Assembly (NCBI RefSeq): GCF_014199615.1
Contig: NZ_JACHOB010000001.1
Coordinates: 1,054,001 to 1,118,000 of the forward strand
From: Parvularcula dongshanensis
GTDB taxonomy: Bacteria; Pseudomonadota; Alphaproteobacteria; Caulobacterales; Parvularculaceae
DNA: 64,000 bases
Direction of reading: 5' to 3'
Shown here: in pieces, positions 429 to 26,768 of the stretch
How positions within the stretch are numbered: the stretch's first letter is position 1
Layout of the letters: every line of letters begins with the position of its first letter
Position numbers and translations under genes: made by a program
Notes under the pieces: model-generated
Seen by the model: only the letters and a program-made list of their open reading frames with translations
What the model was told of the DNA's origin: nothing
Database searches by the model: none

Positions 429-801
429 CGTGATCCTCGACGTCCTTTCCCGGGGCCTCTTCCTCCTCGGCGGGCTCCTGGTCTTCGCCGGCGCGCTGGG
501 CGTCCTGCGGTTTCCCGACTTCTACACGCGGATGCACGCGGCCGGCGTGACCGATACGATGGGGGCGGACCTCGTCCTCCTAGCCATGGCGCTGCAGGCG
601 GACGACCTCATCACGATCGTGAAGCTGTTCTTCATCTTCGTCTTCCTGGTGCTGACGAGCCCCGTCAGCACGCACGCCGCCGCGCATGCGGCCTTCGTCG
701 GTGGATTGCGGCCCCTGACCGGCGCGGACCTCACGCCCGCCGAGGAAGGCGAGGGACCCCGTCCGGTCCGCGCCGCGCGAAGGACGGAGGGAGCGTCCTG
801 A
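421..801 (+). CDS. mnhG: MnhG: monovalent cation/H+ antiporter subunit G
   Basis: A 126-residue membrane protein with three hydrophobic helices. The motif LGVLRFPDFYTRMHAAGVTDT is represented here by its core FPDFYTRMHA, diagnostic of the MnhG/PhaG family of antiporter subunits. After the third helix comes a charged cytoplasmic tail from about residue 100. The start overlaps mnhF and the stop overlaps the next ATG by one base (TGATG at 799-803), so the gene lies inside one transcriptional unit. Confidence 0.93.
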   Translation: MIDVILDVLSRGLFLLGGLLVFAGALGVLRFPDFYTRMHAAGVTDTMGADLVLLAMALQADDLITIVKLFFIFVFLVLTSPVSTHAAAHAAFVGGLRPLTGADLTPAEEGEGPRPVRAARRTEGAS

Positions 802-1460: not shown

Positions 1461-1475
1461 GGGAAGGTTGATCTG

Positions 1476-1922
1476 ATGGGCATGGGACACGTCATTCTGC
1501 GGGTCACGATCAAGCTGCTCTTCGCGCCGATCGTGCTCTTCGCCTTCTACGTACAGTTTCACGGCGACTACGGCCCGGGCGGCGGTTTCCAGGCGGGCGT
1601 GATCCTGGCCGTCGCCTTCGTCCTCTACGCGCTCGGCTTCGGCCTGGAGGAGACCAAGCGTGCCATCCCGCCGCGCTTCCTGACCTTCGGCATGGCCTTC
1701 GGCGTGATGATCTACGTCGGGACCGGGTTCCTGACCCTGTTCCTCGGCGGCAACTTCCTCGACTACAACGTGCTGGACCCCGACAGCCACCACAATGCGG
1801 GCCAGCACCTTGGCATCCTGATGGTCGAGTTCGGCGTCGGCATGGCGGTGGCGTCGACCATGCTGCAGATCTTCTACCTCTTCGCGGGCAGGGAGGCGGA
1901 ACCTTCCGACGACGCATGGTAG
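1476..1922 (+). CDS. mnhB: MnhB: monovalent cation/H+ antiporter subunit B
   Basis: A 148-residue protein with four predicted transmembrane helices. The loop GDYGPGGGFQAGVI (about residues 31-44) is the signature of the MnhB domain. It acts in the membrane as part of the Mrp-type antiporter. ATG 1476 is preceded by GGGAAGG at suitable spacing, and the stop overlaps mnhC by 7 bases. Length and motifs are ordinary. Confidence 0.93.
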   Translation: MGMGHVILRVTIKLLFAPIVLFAFYVQFHGDYGPGGGFQAGVILAVAFVLYALGFGLEETKRAIPPRFLTFGMAFGVMIYVGTGFLTLFLGGNFLDYNVLDPDSHHNAGQHLGILMVEFGVGMAVASTMLQIFYLFAGREAEPSDDAW

Positions 1923-2569
1923 ACGTGCTCGACTTCGTGATCGCCCGGTACAACTACTGGATCGTCATCGTTCTGATGATGACCGGCCTCTACATCGTGT
2001 TCAGCCGCGGGAACCTCGTGAAGTCCCTGATCGGGCTGAACCTGTTCCAGACCTCGGTCTTCATCTTCTACATCTCGATCGGCCGCATCACGGGCGGCAC
2101 GGCGCCGATCCTCCTCGAGGGTCACGGTGACGAGCACGACGCGGAAGGGGCTGCCGACCTGCACGGCGCGACCGTCGGCGGGGAGGGCGCTTCGCACGCC
2201 GCGGACGCGCATGCCGGGGCCGCCCACGGCGCCGAGGCCGGGCTTCACCCCCTGGGCAGCGGATCCGCCGACGTCGCGCCCGGCGCCGACCTCCTCGCAA
2301 GCCCCTCGCACGTGCCGGTCGGCGACCCGCCCGGCGTCGACGTCGTGGAGATCACCCGGACCGTCGGTGACACCATCTACTCGAACCCATTGCCGCATGT
2401 TCTGATCCTCACCGCCATCGTCGTCGGCGTCGCCACGACCGCCGTCGGCCTCGCCATCTGCGTGCGAATCAAAGAGGCCTACGGCACGGTCGAAGAGGAC
2501 GCGCTCGAAGCCATGGACAACGCCGCAGAGTACGGTCTGACCGAAGGCCAGGCCGAGGGGGCAGCGTAG
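1916..2569 (+). CDS. mnhC: MnhC: NuoK-like antiporter subunit C with a long His-rich insertion
   Basis: A NuoK-like antiporter subunit of 217 residues, whereas family members usually have about 110-130. Helix 1 (about 10-31) and helix 2 (35-58, SLIGLNLFQTSVFIF) are typical, and helix 3 (about 158-182, PLPHVLILTAIVVG) is too. Between helices 2 and 3 lies an extra stretch of about 90 residues rich in Ala, Gly, Asp and His, with His at nine or so positions. By homology to NuoK the insertion should face the periplasm. The start overlaps mnhB and the stop overlaps mnhD by one base. The reading frame is unbroken, so the insertion is not a sequencing frameshift. Confidence 0.9.
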   Translation: MVDVLDFVIARYNYWIVIVLMMTGLYIVFSRGNLVKSLIGLNLFQTSVFIFYISIGRITGGTAPILLEGHGDEHDAEGAADLHGATVGGEGASHAADAHAGAAHGAEAGLHPLGSGSADVAPGADLLASPSHVPVGDPPGVDVVEITRTVGDTIYSNPLPHVLILTAIVVGVATTAVGLAICVRIKEAYGTVEEDALEAMDNAAEYGLTEGQAEGAA

Positions 2570-4086
2570 TGGCGCTGGTCGACCACCTTCCCGTCCTCCC
2601 CGTCGTCGTCCCGCTGATCTCGGCGCCGGCCTGCGTACTGCTGCCGAAGGGGCGCTTGCCCTGGCTCTTCGCGACGCTCGTCTCATGGGCGACCTTCGCG
2701 CTCGCCGCGACGCTGCTCGGCGTGGTGATGCAAGAAGGGGTGATCACCTACTACCTCGGCGGCTGGTCCGCGCCGCTCGGCATCGTCTACCGGATCGACC
2801 TTGCGACCGCGATCGTCATGGCGCTCGTCTCCGGCATGGCAGCGGTCGTCTTTCCGTACGCCCGCGCGTCGGTCCTGAAAGAGGTGGGGCGCGACCAGAC
2901 GCCGGCCTTCTACGGCGCCTTCCTCATCTGCCTGACCGGCCTCATCGGCGTCGTCGCCACGGGCGACGCGTTCAACGTGTTCGTCTTCCTGGAGATCAGC
3001 TCGTTGTCGACCTACGCGCTCGTCGCGATGGGCGCGCGGCAGGACAGGCGGGCGCTGACGGCGGCCTTCACCTACCTCGTGCTCGGCACGATCGGCGCGA
3101 CCTTCTTCGTCATCGGCCTCGGCCTCCTCTACCAGATGACCGGCACGCTCAACATGCTGGACCTGCATGCGAAGCTCGCAGGCCAGGACAACAAGGTCGT
3201 TCGCGCCGCCTTCGCCTTCATCGTCACGGGGCTCGGGCTGAAGCTCGCCATGTTCCCGCTGCACCGGTGGCTGCCCAACGCCTACACCTACGCGCCCTCG
3301 GCGGTGACGGCCTTCCTCGCTTCGACCGCGACCAAGGTCGCCGTCTACGCGATGCTGCGGTTCCTCTTCACGATCGTCGGTTTCTCCGCGCCGTTTACGG
3401 AGGTCGCGCTCGGCCTCTTCCTCGTCCTCGGCCTCGCCGGCATGTTCGTCGCCAGCCTGATCGCGGTCTTCCGGGACGACGTGAAGCAGATGCTCGCGTT
3501 CAGCTCCGTCGCGCAGATCGGCTACATGCTGCTCGGTATCTCGTTCGCGACGGAGGCGGGGGTGGCCGCCGCGCTGACCCACGTCGTCAACCACGCGCTG
3601 ATGAAGGCCTCGCTCTTCCTGGCGGTCGGCTGCGTCTACTACGCGATCGGGTCGCACCGCCTCTCCGACTATCGCGGCATCGGAAGGACGATGCCCTTCA
3701 CCGCCGCCTGCTTCATCATCGGCGGGCTCAGCCTGATCGGCGTGCCGCTCACGGCCGGCTTCGTGTCCAAGTTCGTCCTGATCGAAGCGGCGCTCGGCGC
3801 GACCTTGGCCGTTCCCTCGCTGCTGATCGTGCTCCTGATCGTCGCCTCTTCCCTGCTCGCCGTCGCCTATATCGGCCGGGTCGCCTATGAGATGTTCCTC
3901 GCAGACCCGCCAGCGGGCGCCCCGGCCGTACAAGGCCGGGCGGTGCCGCTCGGCATGCTGATCCCCATGGCGGTCGTCACCGCGCTCAACGTCTATGTCG
4001 GCGTCGACGGCGAAGGGCTGGTCGCGCTTTGCACCGAGGCGGCCCAAGGCCTCCTCGCGCTCAGCTTCGGCGGGGGGGCGTTCTGA
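2569..4086 (+). CDS. mnhD: MnhD: proton-conducting antiporter subunit D
   Basis: A 505-residue polytopic membrane protein of the NuoL/M/N and MrpA/D family, with about 14 helices. Key proton-channel residues are visible: the Glu of FVFLEISSLSTYALV (helix 5) and the Lys of GLKLAMFPLHRWLPNAY (helix 7). It begins with GTG at 2569, overlapping the mnhC stop by one base (TAGTG), and ends with a one-base overlap into the next paralog. It is the first of three ND-type subunits in this operon. Confidence 0.93.
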   Translation: MALVDHLPVLPVVVPLISAPACVLLPKGRLPWLFATLVSWATFALAATLLGVVMQEGVITYYLGGWSAPLGIVYRIDLATAIVMALVSGMAAVVFPYARASVLKEVGRDQTPAFYGAFLICLTGLIGVVATGDAFNVFVFLEISSLSTYALVAMGARQDRRALTAAFTYLVLGTIGATFFVIGLGLLYQMTGTLNMLDLHAKLAGQDNKVVRAAFAFIVTGLGLKLAMFPLHRWLPNAYTYAPSAVTAFLASTATKVAVYAMLRFLFTIVGFSAPFTEVALGLFLVLGLAGMFVASLIAVFRDDVKQMLAFSSVAQIGYMLLGISFATEAGVAAALTHVVNHALMKASLFLAVGCVYYAIGSHRLSDYRGIGRTMPFTAACFIIGGLSLIGVPLTAGFVSKFVLIEAALGATLAVPSLLIVLLIVASSLLAVAYIGRVAYEMFLADPPAGAPAVQGRAVPLGMLIPMAVVTALNVYVGVDGEGLVALCTEAAQGLLALSFGGGAF

Positions 4087-5570
4087 TGCTGACGCCCGAG
4101 ACCGCGCTCCTCGCGAGCTTGATCCTGCCGCTGATCGGCTTCGTCGGCATCATGCTGACCGACCGCGCGCCGAACCTGCGCGAGGGGATCACGCTGACGA
4201 CGGCCGTCTTGACCTTCCTTTGCGTGCTGACGGTCTTCGTCGGCGTCGCTGGCGGCGCGCGGCCCGAGGTCACGGTCCTGACGATGCTGCCCGGCCTCGA
4301 CGTCGCCTTCTCGGTCGAGCCGCTCGGCGCGCTCTTCGCGCTGATCGCGTCGGGCCTTTGGATCGTGAACTCGCTCTACTCGATCGGTTACATGCGCGGG
4401 AACGGCGAGAAGGGTCAGACGCGCTTCTACATGTGCTTCGCGATCGCGATCACCGCGGCGCTCGGCATCGCCTACGCCGGAAACCTGCTCACCTTCTTCG
4501 TCTTCTACGAGGCGTTGACGCTTTCGACCTTCCCGCTCGTCACGCACAAGCGCGACGCCAAGGCGCGGGCAGGGGGGCGCATCTACCTCGGCATCCTGAT
4601 CGGCACCTCGATCGGCCTCCTGCTGCCGGCGGTGATCTGGACCTACGTTCTGACCGGCACGACGGACTTCGCGCTCGGCGGCATCCTGGCAGACGCGCCG
4701 GACCTGCGCGGGGCGGGGCCGGTGATCCTGCTCGGTCTCTTCGTCTTCGGGATCGGCAAGGCCGCGCTGATGCCGGTCCATCCCTGGCTGCCCAACGCCA
4801 TGGTCGCGCCGACACCGGTCTCGGCCTTCCTGCACGCGGTCGCGGTCGTGAAGGCGGGCGTCTTCGGGGTGCTGAAGGTGTCGCTCTACGTCTTCGGGAC
4901 GGACTACCTGGCCGCCTCGGGCGCGTCCGAGCTCTACATGTGGATCGCGGCGGGCTCGATCCTCCTCGCCTCCGCCATCGCGATGACGCAGGACAACCTC
5001 AAGGCCCGGCTCGCCTACTCGACGGTCTCGCAGCTCTCCTACGTCACGCTCGGCGCGATGATGGCGACCTCGCTCGGCGTCATTGGCGGGGCGACGCAGA
5101 TCGCGGCGCACGCGCTCGGCAAGATGACGCTCTTCATGTGCGCGGGCGCGGTCTACACCGCAGCGCACCACTCGCTGATCTCGGAAATGCGCGGCACGGG
5201 GCGGGCGATGCCCTACACCTGGATCGCCTACATCATCGGCGCGTGCTCGATCATCGGCCTGCCGCCGATGGCGGGGTCCTGGCCCAAGTTCTACCTGATG
5301 ATGGGCGGGCTTCAGGGCGGGCACGGCTGGCTCATCGCGGTCCTGATCGTCTCGAGCCTGATGAACATCGTCTACCTCCTGACCCCGGCGGTGCGCGCCT
5401 TCATGGACCCCGTGCCGACGCCCGCCTCCGGCCACGCGCCGGCCGCGGTCATTGACGAGGCGCCGCTCTTCTGCCTCGTGCCTGCGTGGATCACCGCGAT
5501 CGGCACGGTGCTGCTCTTCTTCTTCATGGGCGACCTCGTGGCCTTCCTCGAACCCCTGGTGGCACGATGA
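4086..5570 (+). CDS. Second ND-type proton-conducting antiporter subunit
   Basis: A 494-residue paralog of MnhD. Conserved residues include Glu in FFVFYEALTLSTFPLV, and Lys in GIGKAALMPVHPWLP followed by a second Lys in AVAVVKAGVF. I start it at ATG 4086, which overlaps the mnhD stop by one base; an upstream in-frame ATG at 4029 lies inside mnhD and lacks family similarity. It probably supplies a further proton channel, filling the role of the ND5-like N-terminal half of MrpA. The stop overlaps the next start (ATGA). Confidence 0.9.
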   Translation: MLTPETALLASLILPLIGFVGIMLTDRAPNLREGITLTTAVLTFLCVLTVFVGVAGGARPEVTVLTMLPGLDVAFSVEPLGALFALIASGLWIVNSLYSIGYMRGNGEKGQTRFYMCFAIAITAALGIAYAGNLLTFFVFYEALTLSTFPLVTHKRDAKARAGGRIYLGILIGTSIGLLLPAVIWTYVLTGTTDFALGGILADAPDLRGAGPVILLGLFVFGIGKAALMPVHPWLPNAMVAPTPVSAFLHAVAVVKAGVFGVLKVSLYVFGTDYLAASGASELYMWIAAGSILLASAIAMTQDNLKARLAYSTVSQLSYVTLGAMMATSLGVIGGATQIAAHALGKMTLFMCAGAVYTAAHHSLISEMRGTGRAMPYTWIAYIIGACSIIGLPPMAGSWPKFYLMMGGLQGGHGWLIAVLIVSSLMNIVYLLTPAVRAFMDPVPTPASGHAPAAVIDEAPLFCLVPAWITAIGTVLLFFFMGDLVAFLEPLVAR

Positions 5571-5920
5571 GCGAGCATCCGAAGATCCGCGAAGACGAGC
5601 ACTCGGTCTTCGAGCGGCCGCGCACGATCCGCATCATCTGGATCGTGCTCATCGCGTCCTGCGTCCTCTTCGCGGCGCTTGGCTTCGTGCTTGCGGCGAT
5701 GCACGAGATGCACCCGCACTTCACGGCGGACGCGTTCCCGGCCTTCTACGCGGTGGTCGGCTTCGTCTCCTTCGCCTTCATCGTGCTGGCCGGGCAGCAC
5801 CTCCGCCGCATCCTGATGCGGCCCGAAGGCTACTATGACGGCGCGGAGGCGGAGCTGCCGCACAACCCCGTCGCGGACGACGCCGTGCGCGTGACCGACA
5901 TGGACGAGGCGAAGGCGTGA
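5567..5920 (+). CDS. Small two-helix membrane protein of the antiporter operon
   Basis: A 117-residue protein of unknown function. A charged N-terminus (about 1-20) is followed by a helix at about 22-44, a short loop containing HEMHPHF, a second helix at about 58-80 and an acidic tail. The ATGA overlap with the upstream ND-type gene and the GTGA overlap with the downstream methyltransferase place it firmly in the antiporter operon. It could be an accessory or assembly subunit, but nothing in the sequence proves this. Confidence 0.75.
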   Translation: MSEHPKIREDEHSVFERPRTIRIIWIVLIASCVLFAALGFVLAAMHEMHPHFTADAFPAFYAVVGFVSFAFIVLAGQHLRRILMRPEGYYDGAEAELPHNPVADDAVRVTDMDEAKA

Positions 5921-6681
5921 GCGCCGAGACGCTCCTCTTCGGCGGCGCGGCGGAGGCCTACGCCCGCTACCGCCCCGGCTACCCGCAGGCGCTTTTCGAT
6001 CTGCTCCTCGCGCGGACGGCCGGGCGGGGCGTCGCCCTGGACCTCGGCAGCGGGACAGGTGCGATGCTGGGTCCGTTGACGGACAGGTTCGAGCGGGTCG
6101 CCGCCGTCGAGCCCGACGCGAAGATGGCGGCGCTCATCGCGCCTGCGCCGAACCTCGACGTGCAGGTCGCTTCCGCGGAGACCGCGCCGTTGCCCGGCAA
6201 GGTCGATCTCGTCACCTGCGGCACGGCCTTCCACTGGTTCGACGGGCCCCGGGTGCTCTCGAGGCTCGCCGAGGTCGCGGTGCCGGGGGCGCTGCTCGCG
6301 GTCTGCACCTACTACCGCCCCGACCCCGGCCCGGCGACCAAGGCGGTCATCGAGGACGAGATCAAGGCGCGGTGGAAGCCGTTCATGCACGACCGCCTAG
6401 GACGCCACGACTACGCCGCGCGGACGCTCGATGCGCATGGGGACTGGACCGCGCCCGAGCGCGTCCGCGTACCGCACCGCTTCGAAATGGCGGCCGAGGA
6501 CCTCGCAGGGTTTCACGCCTCGACCTCTTACGGCAGCGCCTACCTGCGCACGCTCGCCGATCCGCAAGGCTACCTCACGGACTTCGCGGACCGCCTCGCC
6601 GAGGCGAACGGCAGCCGCATGCTGACCGTCTCGCTGCCCGTCGAGACCCTGCTCTCACAGCCCGCCGGGAGGCGCTCGTGA
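5917..6681 (+). CDS. Class I SAM-dependent methyltransferase
   Basis: A 254-residue cytosolic methyltransferase. Motif I is LDLGSGTGAMLGPL (about 41-54), motif II has the acidic VEPDAKM, and VDLVTCGTAFHWFD is the post-I/IV region typical of UbiE/Tam-like enzymes that act on small molecules. It starts with GTG at 5917 in a 4-base overlap (GTGA) with the preceding gene, and its end overlaps the GTG of the third ND-type subunit. The substrate is unknown. Its position inside an antiporter operon is unusual and may reflect co-transcription rather than shared function. Confidence 0.85.
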   Translation: MSAETLLFGGAAEAYARYRPGYPQALFDLLLARTAGRGVALDLGSGTGAMLGPLTDRFERVAAVEPDAKMAALIAPAPNLDVQVASAETAPLPGKVDLVTCGTAFHWFDGPRVLSRLAEVAVPGALLAVCTYYRPDPGPATKAVIEDEIKARWKPFMHDRLGRHDYAARTLDAHGDWTAPERVRVPHRFEMAAEDLAGFHASTSYGSAYLRTLADPQGYLTDFADRLAEANGSRMLTVSLPVETLLSQPAGRRS

Positions 6682-8444
6682 CCCAAGTCCTGCCCGCCGC
6701 CCTCAGCCCCGGCATGGTCCTCATCCTCGCCGGGCTCGTCGCGGCGCTCCTGCCGCGCATGGGCCGGAACGTCGCGGGCGTCGTCGGGGTCGCGATCGCC
6801 TTCGTACACCTTCTCTCCTACGGCAACGCGCCCGTCGGCGAGCCGCTCCTCTTCGCGCAGTCGAGCGTGATGGGCTTCGATCTGACGGGGGTGAGGGTCG
6901 ATCGGCTCTCCTTCATCTTCTCGTTCATCTTTCACGTCGCAGCGGCGCTCAACGTCATCTACGGCTGGCGTCACGCGACGCGGCTCGAGGCGTCGATGGG
7001 CCTCATCTATGCGGGCGCCGCCATCGGCGGCGCGCTCGCAGGGGACCTCCTGACGCTCTTCGTCTACTGGGAGCTCGCGGCGCTCTCCTCCGTGTTCATC
7101 GTCTGGGCCGGGGGCGGGCACGCCGCGTTCAAGGCGGGGATGCGCTACCTCGTGGTCCAGGTCAGCTCCGGCCTCCTCCTCATGGGCGGGATCGCGGTCT
7201 GGGCGGGGCAGGGGAACGACCTCGCCTTCAACAGCTTCGAACTCATCGGCCCTGACGGCCGCGTCGCCCTCGCGCCGCTCCTCTTCCTCCTCAGCTTCGC
7301 GATCAAGGCGGCGTTCCCCTTCCTCCATACCTGGCTTCAGGACAGCTACCCCAAGGCGAGCGCGGTCGGCGCGGTCATGCTCTCGGCGTTCACGACCAAG
7401 CTCGCGATCTATACGCTCGCGCGCGGGTTCGCAGGCACGGACATCCTGATCGTCATCGGCTGCGTGATGACCGCCTTCCCGGTCTTCTTCGCGCTGATCG
7501 AGAACGACCTTCGCAAGGTGCTGGCCTACTCGCTGAACAACCAGCTCGGCTTCATGGTCTGCGCCATCGGCATCGGCACGCCGCTGGCGCTGAACGGCGC
7601 GGCGGCGCATGCCTTCGTCCACATCATCTACAAGGCGCTCCTGTTCATGGGGATGGGCGCGGTGCTGACGCGGGTCGGAACGACCAAGGCGACGGAGCTC
7701 GGCGGGCTTCACAAGTCGATGCCGCTGACGACCGTCTTCACCATCGTCGGGGCCATGTCGATCTCGGCCTTCCCGCTCTTCTCCGGCTTCGTCGCGAAGT
7801 CGATGATCACGCTCGCCGCGGCGGAGCAGCACCACTTCTGGGCCTACCTCGCGCTCCTCTTCGCCTCGGCCGGGGTACTCGAGCACTCAGGGATCAAGAT
7901 CCCGTACTTCGCCTTCTTCGCGCACGACAACTTCGCGCCTTCGATCACCGGGCGGGCACGTCCGAAGGAGGCGCCCCTGCCCATGCTGATCGCGATGGGC
8001 ATCGCCGCGTTCTTGTGCATCTTCATCGGCGTCGTGCCGTCGGCGCTCTACGCGCTTCTGCCGTTCGAAGCGGAGTACACGGCCTATACATCGGCGCACG
8101 TCGTCACGCAGATGCAGCTCTTGATGTTCGCGATCCTGGCCTTCGCGCTCCTCGTGAAGTTCCGTCTGTACCCGGCGGAGGTTCGGTCGGTGAACCTCGA
8201 CGTCGATTGGTTCTGGCGGGTGCCGGGGCGGAAGCTCTTGATGGGCGGCGTCGTCTGGACTTCGGCGGCATGGCGGTCGGTCTGGGGCGGTGCGCGAACG
8301 GGCGCTGCCGGCACGATCCGCCGCCTCTATGCGACGCACGGGCCCGAGGGCGGCTTGGCGCGGACGTGGACGGTGGGCTACACGGCGCTCACGACCGCCG
8401 TCGTCCTCGCGATCACGCTGCTTCTCGTCTTCGCCGCCGGGTAA
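6678..8444 (+). CDS. Third ND-type antiporter subunit (long MnhD-like)
   Basis: A 588-residue polytopic membrane protein of the NuoL/M/N-MrpD superfamily. The helix-5 Glu is in LFVYWELAALSSVF, and lysines occur in SFAIKAAFPFLHTWLQD and AFTTKLAIY. It is about 90 residues longer than the two upstream paralogs because of a C-terminal extension with a last helix at about 565-585. I start it at GTG 6678, overlapping the methyltransferase stop (GTGA); the frame is also open upstream but antisense-like there. It ends the operon, and the following spacer holds two small inverted repeats. Confidence 0.88.
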   Translation: MTQVLPAALSPGMVLILAGLVAALLPRMGRNVAGVVGVAIAFVHLLSYGNAPVGEPLLFAQSSVMGFDLTGVRVDRLSFIFSFIFHVAAALNVIYGWRHATRLEASMGLIYAGAAIGGALAGDLLTLFVYWELAALSSVFIVWAGGGHAAFKAGMRYLVVQVSSGLLLMGGIAVWAGQGNDLAFNSFELIGPDGRVALAPLLFLLSFAIKAAFPFLHTWLQDSYPKASAVGAVMLSAFTTKLAIYTLARGFAGTDILIVIGCVMTAFPVFFALIENDLRKVLAYSLNNQLGFMVCAIGIGTPLALNGAAAHAFVHIIYKALLFMGMGAVLTRVGTTKATELGGLHKSMPLTTVFTIVGAMSISAFPLFSGFVAKSMITLAAAEQHHFWAYLALLFASAGVLEHSGIKIPYFAFFAHDNFAPSITGRARPKEAPLPMLIAMGIAAFLCIFIGVVPSALYALLPFEAEYTAYTSAHVVTQMQLLMFAILAFALLVKFRLYPAEVRSVNLDVDWFWRVPGRKLLMGGVVWTSAAWRSVWGGARTGAAGTIRRLYATHGPEGGLARTWTVGYTALTTAVVLAITLLLVFAAG

Positions 8445-8707
8445 ACGGAAGCTTACAGGCCGCAAGGGTCCGGTAACGACCGGATCCGAACGTTCGGTAG
8501 AAGCAAGCGGCGCGTAGCGGGGCACGGAGCGATTTCCGAGCAGGAACAGACGCTGTTTCTTAATGACGGCTTACTGTAGTTGAATCAGTTCAATTCGAAT
8601 AAAACTGTCCACTAAACCAAGAAAAACTTGTCCCCGTGTAGGTTGTGTCTCGTAAGATGGGACATCCGGAGAGGGTGGTCCGGAACAACCAGGGCAAGGG
8701 CAAAAAC
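8445..8707 (+). promoter_or_regulatory. Intergenic control region with palindromes upstream of the DnaA-like gene
   Basis: Two inverted repeats follow the antiporter operon: TCCGGT-AACG-ACCGGA at 8469-8484 and the perfect palindrome CCGAACGTTCGG at 8486-8497. Next comes an unusually AT-rich stretch (about 8551-8640). It contains TTAA-N7-TTAC at 8560-8574, one base off the TTAA-N7-TTAA pattern of the alphaproteobacterial regulator CtrA, and TTGAA-N4-TTCAA at 8580-8593. The AT-rich part probably carries the promoter of the gene at 8708. Assignments to specific regulators are inference. Confidence 0.45.
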
Positions 8708-9127
8708 ATGACGTTGGAGAGTAGCGGCGCAGGCGCGCCGCAAGACTGGTTCGCGTTCACCGCGAGACGACTGGTCGCAGCGGAGTTTCGCATCGCGGAG
8801 AGCGCGTTGGCCTCGGCGAGCCGGGCCAAGCAGGAGGTCGCCTTCGCGCGGCAGGTGGCGATGTACCTCGCCCATGTCTGCTATCAGCTGACCTATCAGG
8901 AGGTCGCGGACGCGTTCGGCCGGGAGCGGACGACAGTGTCGCATGCCTGTGCCGTCGTCGAAGACGCGCGGGACGAAGGAAACAGGCTCGACGAGCGCCT
9001 CTGCAAACTCGAGGAGCGGCTGCGGGCCCTCGCGAAGCTTCGTACGGGCTGGCCGACCGCGATGCCGCCGAGCGAAGCCAGAAGCGGCGTCATCCCTTTC
9101 TCAGGTCCAACCGGGCGCGAACGCTGA
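8708..9127 (+). CDS. Stand-alone DnaA domain IV-like DNA-binding protein
   Basis: A 139-residue protein whose centre (about residues 48-88) resembles the DNA-binding domain IV of the replication initiator DnaA: RQVAMYLAHVCYQLTYQEVADAFGR, here cited as RQVAMYLAH, then RERTTVSHAC. The Thr-Thr and His of the DnaA-box-reading motif are kept, but the usual Asp-His before TT is Glu-Arg. There is no AAA+ ATPase domain, so it cannot initiate replication alone; it could bind DnaA-box-like sites as a regulator. I chose ATG 8708 near an AGGGCAAGGG purine run. Its 3' end overlaps gluQ by 38 bases tail to tail. Confidence 0.75.
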   Translation: MTLESSGAGAPQDWFAFTARRLVAAEFRIAESALASASRAKQEVAFARQVAMYLAHVCYQLTYQEVADAFGRERTTVSHACAVVEDARDEGNRLDERLCKLEERLRALAKLRTGWPTAMPPSEARSGVIPFSGPTGRER

Positions 9128-9938
9128 GAGGCGTCTCGCCGGCGTCCGCCAGGCTGCGCAGTGTCTTCGACCTGTCCCGCTTCGCGAGCCGCCGCCCCCC
9201 TTCGTCAGTGACGAGGGGGTGGTGCCGGTAGGTGGGCGGGGCGGAACCGAAGAGGGCGTAGAGGAGAACGTGAAGGTCGGCCGCTTCCTTCAGGTCCTCG
9301 CCGCGAATGACGTCCGTCACGCCGGTCGCGATGTCGTCCGTGACCGAGGCGAGGTGATAGCTCGTACCGACATCCTTCCGGGCAAGGACGACATCGCCGT
9401 GACGGGCCGGATCGGCAGCGCGCGTATGCCGGGCGCCGTCCACGATCTCCGTGACAGGAAGCACGCCCATGGCCGCGACCGCTGCGTCCATGTCGAGGCG
9501 CCAGGCGAACGGCTCGTTCGCTTCGAGCCGGGCGGTCTCCTCGGCGGGCGGCAGGGGCGCCCCCTTGAACGCGGACGCAGGACCGTGCGGCGCCGACATC
9601 GCTTCGGCGACTTCCGCACGCGTAAGGAAGCAGCGGTAGACGAGGCCGCGGTCCCGCAGGGCTTCGAGCCCGTCGCGATAAGCAGCCATCCTCTCCGATT
9701 GGCGCAGCAAGGGCGCGTCCCAGCTCAAACCGAGCCAAGCGAGGTCCTCGTAGATCGCCTCTTCGAACTCGGGACGGCACCGGCCCCGGTCGATATCCTC
9801 GATCCGCAGAAGGAACCGTCCGCCATGCGCTCGTGCCGCGTCGTGGTTCAGGATCGCCGAGTAGGCATGGCCCAAATGCAGGAGTCCGGTCGGGGAGGGG
9901 GCGAAGCGGGTCACGATCATAGGAGCGCGAGCCGACAT
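9090..9938 (-). CDS. gluQ: Glutamyl-Q tRNA(Asp) synthetase
   Basis: A 282-residue paralog of the catalytic domain of glutamyl-tRNA synthetase, lacking the anticodon-binding domain. It attaches glutamate to queuosine at position 34 of tRNA-Asp. The class I signature appears as RFAPSPTGLLHLGHA near the N-terminus, and the KMSKS equivalent is RLAKRDRSK near the C-terminus. The zinc-binding cysteines found in some homologs are not obvious. The start at 9938 gives MSARAPM; a second Met seven residues in is also possible. The 3' end overlaps the DnaA-like gene. Confidence 0.9.
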   Translation of the reverse strand: MSARAPMIVTRFAPSPTGLLHLGHAYSAILNHDAARAHGGRFLLRIEDIDRGRCRPEFEEAIYEDLAWLGLSWDAPLLRQSERMAAYRDGLEALRDRGLVYRCFLTRAEVAEAMSAPHGPASAFKGAPLPPAEETARLEANEPFAWRLDMDAAVAAMGVLPVTEIVDGARHTRAADPARHGDVVLARKDVGTSYHLASVTDDIATGVTDVIRGEDLKEAADLHVLLYALFGSAPPTYRHHPLVTDEGGRRLAKRDRSKTLRSLADAGETPLSVRARLDLRKG

Positions 9939-9980
9939 GGCCTTGGCATTGCAACGATCCCGTCAGCACGGAGGCCGTTC

Positions 9981-10433
9981 ATGTTCGAGAAGACCGTCAT
10001 CCGCCAGGGCAAGTCGAAGCTCATGGTAAGTTTGTGCCTGACCGATGGGCGTCAGGTCGAGGGCGAGGTGTTCGTCTGTCCAGGCGAACGCCTGTCCGAC
10101 CTCCTCAACGATTCGCGCGCCTTCGTGCCTGTCGAAAGTCCAGAGGGCGAGATCGAGGTCGTGGCGAAGCAGGCGATCCTGTCCGCCCGCCTGATGGCGC
10201 AGGAGCCCGTCGAGGTTCGGGATCCCTACGGCCTGCTGCGCGTCGAACGAACCGCGACCGATTCCGAGATCCGCACCGCCTGGATGGAGAAGGTCAAAGC
10301 GAGCCATCCGGACAGGCTGGCCAGCCTCGGCATGGACGAATCGGTGGTCTACGCCGCGCGCAAGGTCTGCCAGCGCATAAACGGCGCTTACGACGACATC
10401 ATTCGCCAGCGACGGGGCAGCGCGGCGGCCTAG
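9981..10433 (+). CDS. J-domain protein with N-terminal DUF6812-like region
   Basis: A 150-residue protein. Residues 1-70 form a small beta-rich region resembling DUF6812, and residues 78-145 form a J domain with the catalytic HPD tripeptide in ASHPDRLASLG and a helix-IV region NGAYDDIIRQRR. J domains stimulate the ATPase of Hsp70 (DnaK), so this is probably a specialised co-chaperone. ATG 9981 is preceded by GGAGG at 9970-9974 with ideal spacing. It shares its stop with tldD at CTAG 10430-10433. Confidence 0.82.
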   Translation: MFEKTVIRQGKSKLMVSLCLTDGRQVEGEVFVCPGERLSDLLNDSRAFVPVESPEGEIEVVAKQAILSARLMAQEPVEVRDPYGLLRVERTATDSEIRTAWMEKVKASHPDRLASLGMDESVVYAARKVCQRINGAYDDIIRQRRGSAAA

Positions 10434-11845
10434 CCGCCCGCGCCGCCGACCGTGATGCGGTCGATCTTGCAGCTCGGCTGGCCGACGCCGACGGGCACAC
10501 CCTGGCCGGCCTTGCCGCAGACCCCGATGCCGGGGTCGAGGTCGAAGTCGTTTCCAATCATCGAGATGCGGCGCATGACGGTCGGCCCGTCGCCGATCAG
10601 GGCGACGTTCTTGAGCGGCTCGCCGACCTTCCCGTTCCGGACGCGGTAGGCCTCGGTGCAGTTGAAGACGAACTTGCCGCTCGTGATGTCGACCTGACCG
10701 CCCGAGAAGTTCACGGCGTAGATGCCGTCCTTGACGCTGCCGATCAGGTCGGCGCGGCTGTGCTCGCCGCCGGTCATGAAGGTGTTGGTCATGCGCGGCA
10801 TCGGGGCGTGGGCGAAGCTTTCGCGTCGTCCATTGCCGGTCGGCGCGACGCCCATAAGGCGGGCGTTGAGCCTGTCCTGCATGAAGCCGACGAGGCGGCC
10901 GTCCTCGATCAGGGTCGTGCGCGAGGTCGGGGTGCCTTCGTCGTCGACGGTAAGGGAGCCCCGGCGCCCTTCGAGCGTTCCGTCGTCGACGACGGTGACG
11001 CCGTCCGCCGCGACCTTCTCGCCGAGGAGTCCGGCGAAGGCGGACGTCTTCTTGCGGTTGAAATCACCTTCGAGGCCGTGACCGACCGCTTCGTGCAGGA
11101 GCACGCCGGTCCAGCCGGAGCCGAGCACGACTTCCATCTCGCCGGCGGGGGCGGGGACGGCTTCGAGGTTCACGAGCGCCATGCGCAGCGCCTCGTCGAT
11201 CTGGGCCTGCCAGAAGCGAGGATCGATGAGGCGGGTGTAGGTCTCCCGGCCGCCGGCGCCGGCCGAGCCCGATTCCTGCCGATCGCCTTCGCCCGCCGTG
11301 ACCGCGACGTTGAGGCGCACGAGGGGGCGGACATCGCGGACGATCTGACCGCCGGGGCGGACGATCTCGACCGTGACGTGCTCGCCGGAGAGGCTCGCCG
11401 ACACCTGCCGGACGCGCGGGTCGAGGTCCCGCGCATAAGCGTCGATGTCCTGCAGAAGCCGAATCTTCTTGTCGAAGGCGAGGCCGTCTAGCGGGTTGTC
11501 GGCGGTGTAGAGCGACGTGTTCGTGCGAGCCGGTCCGCCCGCGAGCGTGCCGCCCTGGCCGGTGCGAACGGCCTGGACCGAGGCGGCGGCGCGCTTGAGC
11601 GCGGCCTCAGAAAGCTCCGACGCGTGCGCGTAGGCCGTCGTCTCGCCGAGGACGGCACGCAGGCCGAAGCCCTGCGAGACGTCGTAGCTCGCCGTCTTCA
11701 AGCGTCCGTCGTCGAAGACGAAGGCTTCGGACTGGCTGTGCTCTAAGTAGAGCTCGCCGTCGTCGGCGCCGGAGAGGGCGTCGTCGACGACGCCTTGGGT
11801 CCGGACGGCGTCGAGGTCGGTTCTGTCGAAGAAGAGAGAGGCCAT
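10430..11845 (-). CDS. tldD: TldD metalloprotease
   Basis: A 471-residue cytosolic zinc metallopeptidase subunit. With TldE/PmbA it degrades unfolded peptides and processes some ribosomal peptides such as microcin B17. The metal site HEAVGHGLEGD fits the family motif HExxxH, and the glycine-rich C-terminal region with SMIGNDFDLDPGIGVCGK is characteristic. No partner pmbA is seen nearby. The gene converges on the J-domain gene, and both stop within the same CTAG tetramer. Confidence 0.95.
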   Translation of the reverse strand: MASLFFDRTDLDAVRTQGVVDDALSGADDGELYLEHSQSEAFVFDDGRLKTASYDVSQGFGLRAVLGETTAYAHASELSEAALKRAAASVQAVRTGQGGTLAGGPARTNTSLYTADNPLDGLAFDKKIRLLQDIDAYARDLDPRVRQVSASLSGEHVTVEIVRPGGQIVRDVRPLVRLNVAVTAGEGDRQESGSAGAGGRETYTRLIDPRFWQAQIDEALRMALVNLEAVPAPAGEMEVVLGSGWTGVLLHEAVGHGLEGDFNRKKTSAFAGLLGEKVAADGVTVVDDGTLEGRRGSLTVDDEGTPTSRTTLIEDGRLVGFMQDRLNARLMGVAPTGNGRRESFAHAPMPRMTNTFMTGGEHSRADLIGSVKDGIYAVNFSGGQVDITSGKFVFNCTEAYRVRNGKVGEPLKNVALIGDGPTVMRRISMIGNDFDLDPGIGVCGKAGQGVPVGVGQPSCKIDRITVGGAGG

Positions 11846-11894
11846 GCCCGCAAGTTAGGGTCGGCGGGCCGGGGAGGATAGGGGCCTTCTCGCC

Positions 11895-12392
11895 TCAGCT
11901 CGTGACGGCGCGGTCGAACACGACCTCCCGTTCGATGTAAGGCCTTTCGAGCTGACGCAGGCGTTCGAGCGCGACCTCGTTATCGGGGTCGAGCTTCAGA
12001 GCGCGAGCGTAGTCGGCGCGGGCGAGCCCTTCGAGGTCGAGGTCCGGGCCGGACGCCATCTCCCAAGCGAGGCCCCGGTTGATAAAGACCCGAGCGGTCT
12101 TCATGCCGAAGCCGTCGATCGCGAGCGTGAAGTCGTCCGCCGCGGCCCGGTAGTCACCGAGGCGAAACCGGACGACGCCCCGGTTCACGACCGAAGCGCC
12201 AAGGTTGCCGCGAATGTTCGCTTGGCTCGCGACCGCACGGTCGCAGTCCCTCACCGCATCCTCGTCCGGCATCGTGTCGACCGCGTGCAGGTAGCACCGC
12301 CTCGCCCAGTCCTCCCCGGCGAGGAGGGTGATGCCGGGACCGTCCGTCCGCGGTCCCGCCATGGCGGCCAACGCCAAGACCAACGCGATCAT
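11895..12392 (-). CDS. Exported TPR-repeat protein
   Basis: A 165-residue secreted protein. It starts with a short signal peptide (MIALVLALAAMAG), followed by a region with two Cys (ARRCYLHA and VRDCDRA) and three TPR-like helical hairpins from about residue 60, including NRGVVRFRLGDYRAAADDF and YARALKLDPDNE. I prefer the start at 12392, which has GGGAGG six bases upstream, over an in-frame ATG at 12425. TPR arrays mediate protein contacts; the partner is unknown. Confidence 0.75.
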   Translation of the reverse strand: MIALVLALAAMAGPRTDGPGITLLAGEDWARRCYLHAVDTMPDEDAVRDCDRAVASQANIRGNLGASVVNRGVVRFRLGDYRAAADDFTLAIDGFGMKTARVFINRGLAWEMASGPDLDLEGLARADYARALKLDPDNEVALERLRQLERPYIEREVVFDRAVTS

Positions 12393-22660: not shown

Positions 22661-23107
22661 GTGACAGAGCCGTCCCCCTTCTGGAAGACCAAACCCCTCG
22701 AGGCGATGTCCGAGGCGGAGTGGGAGAGCCTCTGCGACGGCTGCGGGAAGTGCTGCATGGTGCTCCTCGAGGACGAAGATACGGGCGAGCTGTACGAGAC
22801 GAGCGTGTCGTGCCGCCTCTTCGATCCCGAGGCCCGGCGCTGTTCGGCTTATGCGGACCGCCTGCGCCTCGTGCCCGGCTGCGTTCAGGTGACACCGAAG
22901 AACGCGGGCACTTTATCCTGGATGCCGCGCAGCTGCGCCTATCGCCGGCTCGCCGAGGGCCGGGACCTCGCCGACTGGCATCCGCTGGTGAGCGGGCGGC
23001 CCGAGAGCGTCGAAGAGGCCGGCGAGGCCGTCTCGAAGGACCTTCGCTCCGAAGCCCGCGTGAAGGCGTCGAAGCTCTGGCGCTACGTCACGCGAGAGCG
23101 CGACTGA
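22661..23107 (+). CDS. YcgN-type cysteine-cluster protein (UPF0260)
   Basis: A 148-residue cytosolic protein of the UPF0260/YcgN family. Conserved cysteines occur in [23 protein letters not shown] and PRSCAYR, a pattern suggesting a bound metal or Fe-S cluster. Homologs start close to the [12 protein letters not shown] block, consistent with GTG 22661. Function is unproven. The stop is followed by the GTA relic. Confidence 0.88.
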
Positions 23108-23173
23108 CGGACTTATCCCCGTAACCTGCCGCTGGCCTAACCTGCGCTCTCCGTAAGCTGAACGGAGGCGCGT

Positions 23174-23617
23174 CTGCCCCCCGATGACGACGATGCGGGC
23201 GCCACCCTCGCGGCGGGCGTCCTGCGCCTGACCTGCGACTACGCGGGTATCCTCCTCGGTCTCGACTGGTCGAAGCCCGAAGACGTCGCGGCTGCGGAGA
23301 AGCGCGGGCGCATCATCAGCACGCACCGTACCAACGTCGAGAAGATCCTGAGCATGGACCTGAATGAACGCGACCGACACCCCGCCCCCGAAGCAGACGA
23401 CGGATCTCGGCGAGAGCTGGAACGCCGACTGCGGCGCCATGCTGCTGCTCTCGGGAAGGGAGAGCTGGCTCGACGGTTGGAGGCCAGAGGCCTGCCGACG
23501 GACCCTGACGCTCTGGAGCGACTGGCGAAGGCTCGATCAGGAGACGCCGCCCGGGGACTGGACGACGTGGCTCCTGCTGGGCGGCCGGGGGGCGGGCAAG
23601 ACGAGGGCGGGCGCTGA
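23174..23617 (+). pseudogene. Remnant reading frame upstream of the terminase fusion (possible GTA g1)
   Basis: The frame is open from 23162 to the stop at 23615-23617 and is strongly coding-like (GC-rich third positions) up to about 23363. This section reads as a 60-residue segment containing AAGVLRLTCDYAGILLGLDW and STHRTNVEKIL. There is no ATG, GTG or TTG before 23354. A perfect GGAGG (23164-23168) stands five bases before CTG 23174, as if the start codon had mutated. Beyond 23364 the frame is only a shadow of the terminase frame. By position it could be the GTA small-terminase gene (g1), but I cannot confirm homology. Probably decayed. Confidence 0.45.
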
Positions 23618-25766
23618 GTGGATCGCGGAGGTCGTGCGCGGCGGGGCGAGGCGGATCGCGCTCGTCGGCGAGACCTATGAGGACGCCCGCGAGGTGATGA
23701 TCGAGGGCCCCTCGGGCCTCGCCCACATCGGGCCAGAGGCGGAGCGGCCGCGCTACGTCTTCTCCCGGCACAGCCTCGTCTGGCCGAACGGGGCGGAAGC
23801 GCACGTCTTCTCCGCCGCCGACCCAGAAGGCCTGCGCGGGTATCAGTACGAAGCGGCGTGGTCGGACGAGATCGGCTGCAGCGCGGCGGACAAGGGCGCG
23901 AACCAGCCCAACGTGTTCGTGGACCCGAAGTCCTCCGAGTCCTTCTTTCCCTACCACTCGGACCGGAACCGCGACGACCTGATCCAGCGGCGGTTCATCG
24001 AGGCGCACCTGTCCTACTGGACGAAGGCGGAGAACAACCCGCTCTCGCCGGTCTACGGCGGGTCGATGGTCGAGCCCTCGCGCGTCTTCCTCTACACCTG
24101 GGACGCGAGGCCCTTCCCGGACTTCCCCGTCCGAAGCGACGTCTGGTCGGACGCGGAGAACTGGACCTATGGGCACTGGCTGAACGGGCGGGCGGGCAAG
24201 GTGCCGCTCGGCGCGCTGATCGAGGAGGTCGCGCGAGCGTCGGGGCTTCACGCCGTCGACGCCTCGGCCTGCGCCGCCCTCGTCACGGGCTACGTCATCG
24301 ACCGGCCGATGCCGGGTCGCGACGCGCTGCAACCGCTCTTCGACCTCTACCAGCTCGATGCGACCGAGCGGGACGGCGTGCTGATCGTGCGGCCCCGGGG
24401 CCGAGACGCGGAGGAAGCGTTGGACCCTCGCGAGCTCGTCGATACCGGAGAGACGATCCTGATCGCGAACCGAGGGGCGCCCGCTGAACGAGCGACGAGC
24501 CTTTCTCTGACCTACACGGACGGGCTTTCGGACTATCGCACCGGCCACGCCGATGCGGCGTTGCCCGACGCGCGGTCGGGGCAGGCGGGTGCGCTCGTCA
24601 CCGCCGTGGTCTTGGAGCAGGGCGAAGCGGAGGGGCGGCTCGCCTGTCTTCTCGCGGAGGCGGCCTCGTCGGACCAAGGGGCCCGCTTCTCGCTGCCGCC
24701 AGGAGACTTACGCTTCGAGCCCGCCGACGTCGTGGCGCTCGAAGGCCGCACGTTGCGCCTGACGGCGGTTGCGGACGGGGACTACCGGGAGGTCGAGGCG
24801 GTCGCGACCGACCCCTCGCTCTACCGCGCGCGCTACACCGGCCTCTCGGGCACGGCGTCGCCGCTGCCTCGGGCGAAGGGGCCGGTGGTCGCCGAGGTGC
24901 TCGACATCCCGCTCCTTCCCGGCGAGCCGGACGGCCTCTTCTTGCACGTCGCAGCCTTCGCCGAGCCTTGGCCGGGGGCGGTCGCGATCCATGCGGGGCC
25001 GGGGGCGGAGGCACCGCGCGCGGCGATGGTCGCCGCGCCCGCGCTGGTCGGGCGCCTCGCGGCGGATTTGCCGCCGGGGCCGACCTCGCGGTGGGACCGT
25101 GCGAGCGTGCTGCGAGTGAGGCTTTCCGCCGGGGCGCTGTCGAGCCTCGATCGCCAAGCCGTCCTGTCGGGCGGCGGCTACGCCGCGGTGCGGGTCGGCC
25201 AGGGGTGGGAGCTGCTCCAGTACCAAGACGCCGTCCTCGGCGAGGACGGCACCTGGCGGCTGACCAGGCTCCTTCGCGGCCAGCGAGGCACGGAGGACGA
25301 GGCGGCGCAGGGGGCGCTGTCCGGTACCCGCATCGTCTTCCTCAGCGGCGCCGAGACGCTGGCGCTGCCCGCGGACGCACTCGGCACGCCAGCAGCCTGG
25401 CAGGCGGGGCCGGCGGGTGCGCAGCCGGGCCGGTTCCCCTTCGCGGAGGTGCCGGTCTCGGTCGCGGGCGTCAGCGCGCGGCCCTTCGCGCCGGCGCATC
25501 TTCGGGCGGCGGCGCGAGACGCGCGGACGCTTCTTTCCTGGGTCCGTCGGAGCCGCATCGGCGGCGACGCCTGGGGTGAGGACACGCCGCTCGGCGAGGC
25601 GGAGGAGCGCTACCGCGTCACCGTCTGGGACGAGGCCGGCGAGCGCTCGCGGACCGAGGTCGGCGCGCCCGAAGCCCTCGTTGACGCGGCGGGGGCCACC
25701 GAAGTCTGGGTTCAGCAGCTCTCCGCTCTCGTGGGCCCCGGCAGGCCCGCACGCCTCCGCCTGTGA
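23364..25766 (+). CDS. Fusion of GTA large terminase N-terminus to GTA gp15-like tail protein C-terminus
   Basis: An 800-residue in-frame chimera. Residues 1-170 are the N-terminal ATPase part of a GTA-type large terminase: GDWTTWLLLGGRGAGKTRAGAEW with Walker A at 73-80, then GYQYEAAWSDEI with Walker B at about 162-170. From residue 171 the sequence switches to the GTA gp15 host-specificity/tail protein: the end of the TIM-barrel domain (DKGANQPNVFVDPKSSES, YGGSMVEPSRVFLYTWDARP, WSDAENWTYGHWLNGR) and then its tail-type and C-terminal domains. The terminase nuclease, portal, capsid and other tail genes normally found between these genes are missing. The ORF has remained open across about 2.4 kb. 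Function, if any, is unknown. Confidence 0.85.
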   Translation: MNATDTPPPKQTTDLGESWNADCGAMLLLSGRESWLDGWRPEACRRTLTLWSDWRRLDQETPPGDWTTWLLLGGRGAGKTRAGAEWIAEVVRGGARRIALVGETYEDAREVMIEGPSGLAHIGPEAERPRYVFSRHSLVWPNGAEAHVFSAADPEGLRGYQYEAAWSDEIGCSAADKGANQPNVFVDPKSSESFFPYHSDRNRDDLIQRRFIEAHLSYWTKAENNPLSPVYGGSMVEPSRVFLYTWDARPFPDFPVRSDVWSDAENWTYGHWLNGRAGKVPLGALIEEVARASGLHAVDASACAALVTGYVIDRPMPGRDALQPLFDLYQLDATERDGVLIVRPRGRDAEEALDPRELVDTGETILIANRGAPAERATSLSLTYTDGLSDYRTGHADAALPDARSGQAGALVTAVVLEQGEAEGRLACLLAEAASSDQGARFSLPPGDLRFEPADVVALEGRTLRLTAVADGDYREVEAVATDPSLYRARYTGLSGTASPLPRAKGPVVAEVLDIPLLPGEPDGLFLHVAAFAEPWPGAVAIHAGPGAEAPRAAMVAAPALVGRLAADLPPGPTSRWDRASVLRVRLSAGALSSLDRQAVLSGGGYAAVRVGQGWELLQYQDAVLGEDGTWRLTRLLRGQRGTEDEAAQGALSGTRIVFLSGAETLALPADALGTPAAWQAGPAGAQPGRFPFAEVPVSVAGVSARPFAPAHLRAAARDARTLLSWVRRSRIGGDAWGEDTPLGEAEERYRVTVWDEAGERSRTEVGAPEALVDAAGATEVWVQQLSALVGPGRPARLRL

Positions 25767-25835
25767 CCGCATCCCTTGAAACTGCGCCCGCTTTCCTAAG
25801 ATATGCGGGGGCAGTTTTCTCGAGGCGAACAGCGA

Positions 25836-26768
25836 TTGGCACAGGATCCCTACAGCGTGCTCGGCGTCGGGCGGCAGGCCTCGGCGGATGAGATCCGCAA
25901 GGCCTATCGCAAGCTCGCCAAGCAGTATCACCCCGACCGCAACCAGGGCGACAAGGCCGCCGAGGACCGATTCAAGGCGGTCTCGGCCGCGTTCGACATC
26001 GTCGGGGACGAAGAGAAGCGCAAACGCTACGACCGCGGCGAGATCGACGCGGACGGGAACGAGCGGGCGCCAGGCTTCGGCGGTGGCGGCGGCAACCCGT
26101 TCGGCGGGCGCTCGGGCGGCTATCGAAGCACCTCTTCGGGCGGCGGCTTCGAGGACATCGGTGACATCTTCTCGGACCTCTTCGGGGCTGGCGGGCCGCG
26201 CGGCCCCCGCGCGCCGCGGCCGCAGAAGGGGCGCGACGTGCGCTACCGCCTGTCGGTCGACTTCCTCGAGGCCGCGCGCGGCGTCACGAAGCGCGTCGCC
26301 ATGCCGGACGGCAAGACGATCGACGTGACGATCCCCGAAGGCCTGCGCGACGGGCAGACCCTGCGTCTGCGCGGCCGCGGCAACCCCGGCATCAATGGCG
26401 GTCCGGCGGGCGACGTCTTCGTCGACGTCAGCGTCAAGCCGCACGGCCTCTTCCGTATCGAAGGCGACAACCTGGCGATCGACGTGCCGGTGACGCTCAG
26501 GGAAGCGGTGCTGGGCGGCAAGGTGGAGGTCCCGACCGTGACGGGCACCGTCGCGATCAGGGTGCCGGCGAACACCTCTTCCGGCACGGCGTTCCGGCTG
26601 CGCGGCAAAGGCCTGAAGAACAGCAAGACGGGGACCAGCGGCGATCTCATCGCCCGTACCCGCATCGTTCTTCCGGAGAAGCCGGACCCGGCGCTCGAAG
26701 CCTTCCTGAAGAGTTGGAAAGAAGGCGAGGCGGACCCACGCGAGGACATGCTCCGCCGCGCTTCCTGA
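25836..26768 (+). CDS. DnaJ-like chaperone without zinc finger (CbpA type)
   Basis: A 310-residue co-chaperone. An N-terminal J domain (DPYSVLGV, with YHPDRNQ carrying HPD) is followed by a Gly/Phe/Ser-rich linker (about 80-130) and two beta-sandwich substrate domains with GRDVRYRLSVDFLEAA and GDVFVDVSVKPHGLFRIEGDNL, cited in part. The CxxCxGxG zinc repeats of true DnaJ are absent, as in CbpA. I favour TTG 25836, where homologs begin, with GAGG ten bases upstream; ATG 25803 would add 11 untypical residues. Confidence 0.88.
   Translation: MAQDPYSVLGVGRQASADEIRKAYRKLAKQYHPDRNQGDKAAEDRFKAVSAAFDIVGDEEKRKRYDRGEIDADGNERAPGFGGGGGNPFGGRSGGYRSTSSGGGFEDIGDIFSDLFGAGGPRGPRAPRPQKGRDVRYRLSVDFLEAARGVTKRVAMPDGKTIDVTIPEGLRDGQTLRLRGRGNPGINGGPAGDVFVDVSVKPHGLFRIEGDNLAIDVPVTLREAVLGGKVEVPTVTGTVAIRVPANTSSGTAFRLRGKGLKNSKTGTSGDLIARTRIVLPEKPDPALEAFLKSWKEGEADPREDMLRRAS

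Follow-up and report, generated by a model that had tools for sequence, protein, structure and literature searches.

Gene transfer agents (GTAs) are very long-lived and yet repeatedly lost, and their upkeep is an open question (PMC10883770). In the RcGTA system the small terminase gp1 binds the ATPase domain of the large terminase, TerL, at residues 27-258 (PMC6854486), and the domain limits of the tail protein gp15, or megatron, have been described (PMC7296036). TerL ATPase domains have seven known intein sites, the Walker B motif of phage TerL1 proteins is occupied by inteins in some cases, and cleavage of intein-free terL is reported for two TerL inteins located elsewhere (PMC5050341); a hidden, out-of-frame HNH has been found in an insertion in a phage methylase (PMC11855218). 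Here we describe a GTA locus in which the large terminase and gp15 have become one gene, and relate its joint to a break site that recurs among other genomes and to inteins of GTA-like viral terminases.

The locus lies in a 64,000-nucleotide stretch of the genome of Parvularcula dongshanensis, a marine bacterium (the window), where a single open frame of 800 codons (23364-25766, forward strand) joins the large terminase (gp2) in frame to gp15, as a first-pass annotation had proposed from the sequence. Residues 1-170 are the terminase part: Pfam places Terminase_6N on residues 71-170 (profile positions 2-105 of 215, E = 1e-13), the Walker A (GGRGAGKT) and Walker B (AAWSDE) motifs are both there as claimed, and identity to residues 18-165 of gp2 from the intact cluster of genome G004 is 65%. 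In terminase motors the ATP-coupling motif is placed after Walker B. No terL sequence is left beyond that point in the fusion, by Pfam or by comparison with G004 gp2, and Terminase_6C was not found by Pfam at E values up to 0.1, so that the nuclease part is gone; with both Walker motifs present but terL ending at the second, the frame falls short of a functional terminase motor. The remainder is the end of gp15, as the annotation had proposed from motifs. GTA_TIM covers residues 165-255 (the last third of its profile, 209-299 of 299, E = 4e-38), Phage-tail_3 residues 313-469 and Rcc01698_C residues 560-658; residues 163-797 are matched by the PHROG 4271 tail protein, and residues 162-798 align with residues 646-1300 of the RcGTA megatron (PDB 6tba_8A, E = 3e-111). 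The C-terminal ~640 residues of gp15 are kept and its N-terminal half is absent, short of a full-length megatron: by published domain limits (PMC7296036), the fusion retains the end of the peripheral domain with the central and fibre-binding domains, and is without the iris, the adhesin-like domain and most of the peripheral domain. Within its own genome the fusion protein has one match only, with no second copy.

At the joint the sequence reads GCG TGG TCG GAC G^AG ATC GGC TGC (^ marks the break), with the codons of both genes in one register, as had been suggested. The last terminase base (Table 1) was set by the same reading rule as in the other cases below, and bases shared by both partners leave it uncertain by a few nucleotides. 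The YcgN-like and DnaJ-like genes between which the annotation had placed the fusion also border the intact cluster of G004, marking the conserved chromosomal locus of the family; a YcgN-like homologue is close to the GTA locus in G066 as well. The predicted loss of portal and HK97-type capsid was borne out, since Phage_capsid and Phage_portal (Pfam) and the GTA portal all went unmatched in the genome. The fusion is most likely the scar of a recent deletion, ~10.6 kb in comparison with intact G004, that took the C-terminal part of gp2 through the N-terminal half of gp15 from an RcGTA-type cluster in a Parvularcula relative.

Table 1. Positions of the fusion parts, their neighbours and the viral HNH frames (window coordinates unless a viral contig, L191 to L194, is given).
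Feature	Coordinates	Strand	Evidence
YcgN-like gene, left flank of GTA locus	22661..23107	+	Homologues precede terL in intact G004 as well as in G025, G072, G080
gp1 (small terminase)-like frame	23162..23617	+	Identity 52% to P. oceani frame, 36% to intact G004 gp1
N-terminal ATPase half of the gp2 terminase, ending with GAC G in Walker B	23364..23868	+	Terminase_6N, identity to G004 gp2
TGG TCG GAC G, Walker-B bases forming left deletion edge	23859..23868	+	Junction listing; TGG NNN GAY G in 8 other genomes
C-terminal part of gp15/megatron: TIM-like peripheral domain (its end only), central domain, fibre-binding domain	23869..25766	+	Pfam, 6tba_8A
DnaJ-like gene, right flank of GTA locus	25803..26768	+	Downstream of gp15 in intact genus members
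Nested HNH frames of viral inteins	L191:3216-3941; L192:1785-2072; L193:3213-3932; L194:242-958		Out of frame within inteins

The gp1-like frame precedes the fusion and overlaps its start by ~250 nt. Walking back through its start codons, we found no in-frame ATG, GTG or TTG before 23354, and the ATG at 23184, which follows a GGAGG stretch, belongs to a different frame; the 5' end of gp1 therefore looks frameshifted just after its likely start, and the small-terminase frame of the window seems already broken. The corresponding frame of Parvularcula oceani has a TTG start available. The TerL region that gp1 binds in RcGTA is only partly present in the fusion.

Unlinked to the GTA cluster, a DUF2793 gene lies on the minus strand around 9965-10231 of another locus of the same genome (L072, G000:C2). 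DUF2793 (PF10983), presumably a GTA fibre or spike domain, was found in 18 of the 22 genomes asked and was absent only from four picked as GTA-less; all 18 hold some piece of a GTA. As a date marker of GTA loss it was rejected, being kept in collapsed and decayed genomes. DUF6456 (PF20057), which we take to be linked with GTA regulators, proved uninformative as a marker of such regulators at unlinked sites, with no match in any of the 22 genomes, intact ones included. Non-Rhodobacterales have been described as without a TspA homologue (PMC13420450).

Within the genus, P. oceani JLT2013 has the same joint, at 65% identity over ~780 residues. Terminase and gp15 are separate genes in the other eight genomes, their parts ~10-11 kb apart on one contig in seven of these intact members while in G001 they lie on different contigs. 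Flanking genes and gp15C both place the two fused species as sisters at 100% support, and by parsimony the fusion arose once, in their common ancestor. In that case their gp15 parts have diverged by 0.65 substitutions per site since the fusion, which argues for selection on the chimera. The frame holds no stop at that 65% identity, where neutral simulation predicts 6-11 stops at half the divergence, and NG86 dN/dS is 0.35 (third positions 0.45 versus 0.26 and 0.22). At one terL position, where 28 intact terminases all have F, both sisters differ (F to Y and F to H). These observations fit a single ancestral collapse whose product has been retained in a new capacity, such as that of a fibre-binding or surface scaffold that uses the fibre-binding domain of gp15. 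The F to Y and F to H hint is weak, however, as among the 28 intact terminases 8 likewise deviate at one or more positions that are invariant in the rest. The terminase half, moreover, ends at Walker B, the window gp1 looks frameshifted, and the strong constraint between the sisters, whose reading as purifying selection after the fusion depends on when the fusion arose, is of the kind seen in intact gp15. Regional identity of the fused pair follows that of intact pairs, including the destroyed TIM-barrel stub (0.78 versus 0.69-0.82 in 8 intact pairs). In the terL part, dN/dS is 0.29 for the fused pair versus 0.06-0.15 across six intact pairs, which speaks for relaxed constraint on the terminase; dS is low in the fused pair, and we suspect base composition.

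The other collapsed genomes bear on this. Eight gp15 remnants were tested, those of both fused sisters and of six other collapsed genomes, and no stop was found in the matched gp15 stretch of any of them. None has a changed residue at the 48 columns invariant in 38 intact gp15s, gaps being confined to nine cells (one in G014, eight in G338); at 70 columns conserved to 95%, five of the eight are without change and G014, G392 and G338 have two each. Three remnants (G300, G089 and G392) do not share the reading frame of the terminase, which leaves no fusion protein to protect their gp15, and they are equally undamaged. A clean frame is therefore how a young scar looks, and the collapses look young: the absence of stops bounds the mean neutral age at 0.020 substitutions per site for the three out-of-frame cases, and at 0.0074 for all eight if their ages are equal. 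The annotation had held the open frame to be either recent or kept for a new role; the former fits better, and the latter, with constraint matching intact gp15 down to the TIM-barrel stub and the 48 invariant columns, and with out-of-frame remnants just as clean, we consider unlikely. We read the open frame as the outcome of a young event in which the joined codons happened to share register, rather than as proof that the chimera has a job, and the remnant is probably for the most part without function.

Searching with the fusion in the window's family gave matches in 55 of 62 genomes, and searching with an intact GTA terminase in three more families gave matches in 112 of 137, 50 of 60 and 82 of 105; the matches listed from a search across 398 genomes of the taxonomic order served only for choosing loci. 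From these we read 11 independent collapses with a legible terminase end, counting the two sisters once, a set that is not a full census. In eight of the 11 the break can be placed within the Walker-B codons, directly after one and the same base, TGG NNN GAY G^ (the P. dongshanensis/P. oceani pair G000/G002, G014, G074, G072, G300, G089, G392 and G338). The chance of eight of 11 falling in one 9-nt window of terL is ~1e-12 by a union bound over windows, a figure to be read with the choice of loci, which in a second look at families f2 and f4 took matches ending near residue 165 and so favours Walker B, while in f1 and f5 it did not depend on residue 165 alone; the Walker-B edge is found in 8 of 10 collapses in the two families read most fully, and likewise in 8 of 10 without the f2 case. 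The edge is exact in G392 and blurred by a few nucleotides of shared bases in several other joints. Exceptions are G025 and G309, which break elsewhere in terL, and G393, ~20 nt further on. On the gp15 side the partner point varies (G004 numbering): ~512 in G014, G074, G300 and G089, ~630 in G000, G002 and G392, ~648 in G338 and ~991 in G072. Frame is kept in four of the eight Walker-B collapses and lost in the other four. Selection for in-frame joints was considered and rejected: seven of 11 are in frame (P = 0.039) in a set that includes G056 and leaves out the out-of-frame G393, but only 4 of 8 among Walker-B cases (P = 0.26), and 7 of 12 once G393 is added.

These collapses have separate origins. 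In gp15 trees G014 groups with G026, G074 with G075/G077, G300 with G303, G089 with G164 and G392 with G344, every partner being intact and every grouping supported at 98-100%; G072, which is outside the trees, and G338, with no intact sister in them, each join gp15 at a point that no other collapse uses. Transfer of a single deletion allele between lineages was rejected on this ground, as the trees set five remnants beside close intact relatives; among plasmids no match was found. A GTA-like portal was found in none of 14 collapsed genomes, several of them incomplete drafts, versus all 8 intact ones (G004 being the source of the query and the G301 copy holding a stop); G014 and G300 gave only matches elsewhere, at 30% and 26% identity. 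Several of these assemblies are fragmented, with contigs of G074 and G338 starting within terL, and G239 and G147, both dropped, have runs of N at the locus, all of which would suit an artefact of assembly or database. Against that, G300 is a single contig with a like joint, the P. oceani contig, with the same joint as the window, has the same size in two collections, joints vary by 0-2 bases and by partner, and related genomes hold intact clusters, in G004 at the same locus with the same flanks. An artefact is very improbable, and the collapse is almost certainly real.

Several loci stand outside the 11. Besides G239 and G147, these are decayed clusters whose joint was not read (G412, G066), a rearranged one (G101), one with tail genes lost (G022), one with the terminase lost (G093), a capsid-gp15 case (G056) and cases at contig edges (G428, G017, G080). 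Partial terminase matches outside the sequence-level reading occur in G276, G356, G362 and G389, in further genomes of which some have a full copy alongside (G088, G094, G100, G106, G139, G145, G165, G169, G173, G175, G183, G209, G213, G215, G247, G263, G267, G330, G354, G450), and in split-contig genomes such as G036, G062, G068 and G078. Individual loci show other arrangements: the terminase-gp15 joint of G309 (L108, 1005-2342) is in frame, at terminase residue ~280 and gp15 residue ~1068; in G056 (L039, ~10786-11919) the N-terminal part of the capsid is joined in frame to the C-terminal part of gp15; in the 20 kb read of G022:C1 (L036), matches run from gp2 to gp9 and the later tail genes have none; and Faunimonas pinastri has two gp15-like loci at contig ends in one genome (L041 and L042).

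The annotation had attributed the joint to a microhomology deletion, and a few shared bases are indeed present at some joints. By eye, few to ~10 shared bases are possible at several, for example between TGG NNN GAY G and gp15 LW(A/S)D, or between GAG and TE(I/L)G or SSE, as expected if slippage or end joining at short microhomologies recurred, with no nuclease, wherever Walker-B and gp15 codons share bases by chance. But the Walker-B/gp15 pairs are not strong repeats in intact relatives, which we ranked in place of the lost ancestral sequences: 11 pairs, in 9 of 12 clusters, rank from 65 to 10,171 among direct repeats, and many better repeats stay unused. Microhomology alone thus fails to explain repeated use of one spot in the terminase. 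Compared with intact sisters, the left edge is constant while the right edge lies at different places or is without 1-2 bases (one missing at the G392 joint, two at G300 and probably at G089), and G072 shares the left edge with no right-partner similarity seen. A constant left edge with a varying right edge or lost bases fits a fixed cut with imprecise repair. We therefore hold slippage at microhomologies to be unlikely, and a site-specific break at the terminase edge to be the favoured, reasonably likely reading. Walker B is conserved at the protein level, so most GTA clusters would offer a nuclease its target at this place.

Scanning IMG/VR for A-W^C followed by an intein start, a pattern aimed at Walker B, returned 34 stretches, two of them in GTA-like TerLs; a search with that intein added two more among 7 loci, giving four (L191-L194), all on viral contigs. 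In all four the insert splits W-C-D-E after the W and ends LVHN^C; the insertion point is 7 nt to the left of the deletion edge. All four carry intein splicing motifs, CLxGD[TA] ... LVHN^CDE, with Cys at the N-terminus and, at the C-terminus, His-Asn ahead of a further Cys; two were scanned, and in these TIGR01443 (C-terminal) was above its cut-off and TIGR01445 (N-terminal) and Pfam Intein_splicing were below theirs. Nested in the +2 frame of each is an HNH_3 domain (PF13392) above cut-off, at 2e-13 to 1e-19, the frame in L192 being split by a stop after the HNH part. An out-of-frame HNH within an intein is possibly a new intein arrangement in its own right. By our own estimate, given the seven sites known in TerL ATPase domains, an intein site so close to the edge might arise by chance in perhaps about one case in ten. 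A control scan for P-loop inteins, using a similar though not strictly equivalent pattern, gave 27 stretches with none matching GTA TerL; no intein was seen in cellular GTA terL, and no two-piece TerL match, the sign of an intein, among the 60 best and 60 evenly spread of 210 phage records. A further pattern, with the intein placed directly after the D codon, had no match. The annotated large terminase of Caulobacter phage CcrBL10 (L198) has an intein-like insert after a P-loop-like GHAK; it was set aside as lying near the P-loop and not at Walker B.

Most likely, we infer, a sequence-specific double-strand cut at the Walker-B codons initiates the collapse, which illegitimate joining of the broken end to gp15 sequence further downstream would complete. 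An HNH homing endonuclease is the best candidate for the cutter, because GTA-like phage terminases carry an HNH intein 7 nt away, and we name it tentatively as the source of the break. A little more speculative still is the suggestion that a phage intein or its HNH targets the Walker-B codons kept in host GTA terL, so that infection cuts the cluster and survivors, having rejoined the ends, permanently lose GTA production; if so, selfish phage elements would drive scattered GTA loss, leaving footprints that end at one base. Taken as a whole, the account of a young scar at a recurrent break site, made by cutting and illegitimate joining with HNH as candidate, seems to us evenly poised between acceptance and doubt. 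What is new is the recurrence of the terminase break site: among the matches listed in titles and opening lines of abstracts in open PubMed Central, nothing concerned homing endonucleases directed at GTAs, a break site in GTA clusters or fusions of terminase with gp15. With a break site that recurs almost to the base, GTA loss becomes in part a molecular question, namely what cuts there; the site also offers a signature for spotting recent GTA losses in genomes and a specific candidate pair of enzyme and substrate.

The locus resembles the RcGTA-type head-tail cluster in its end genes and, within the family, in its place between YcgN and DnaJ, but portal, capsid and tail genes are gone and the ends are fused. 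It is like the pseudogenised GTA clusters that have been proposed to mark recent cheater lineages (PMC10883770) in the loss of GTA production, the presence of remnants and apparent recency, whereas a fixed break site and terminase-gp15 joints are not among the features described in the available text of that paper. The viral inteins sit in the same large-terminase motif as the TerL1-e inteins in Walker B of mycobacteriophage terminases; those, however, are in Terminase_1 proteins, while the inteins here are in Terminase_6, at W^CDE, with the HNH frame nested out of frame (PMC5050341). They share with the ShiLan domain an HNH in another frame of an in-frame insertion, but that domain lies in a methylase gene and has no splicing domains, whereas the carrier here has intein ends (PMC11855218). 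Finally, as with the intron endonuclease that interferes with a co-infecting phage (PMC11620839), a selfish nuclease would harm a rival genome, the target in the present case being the host's GTA.
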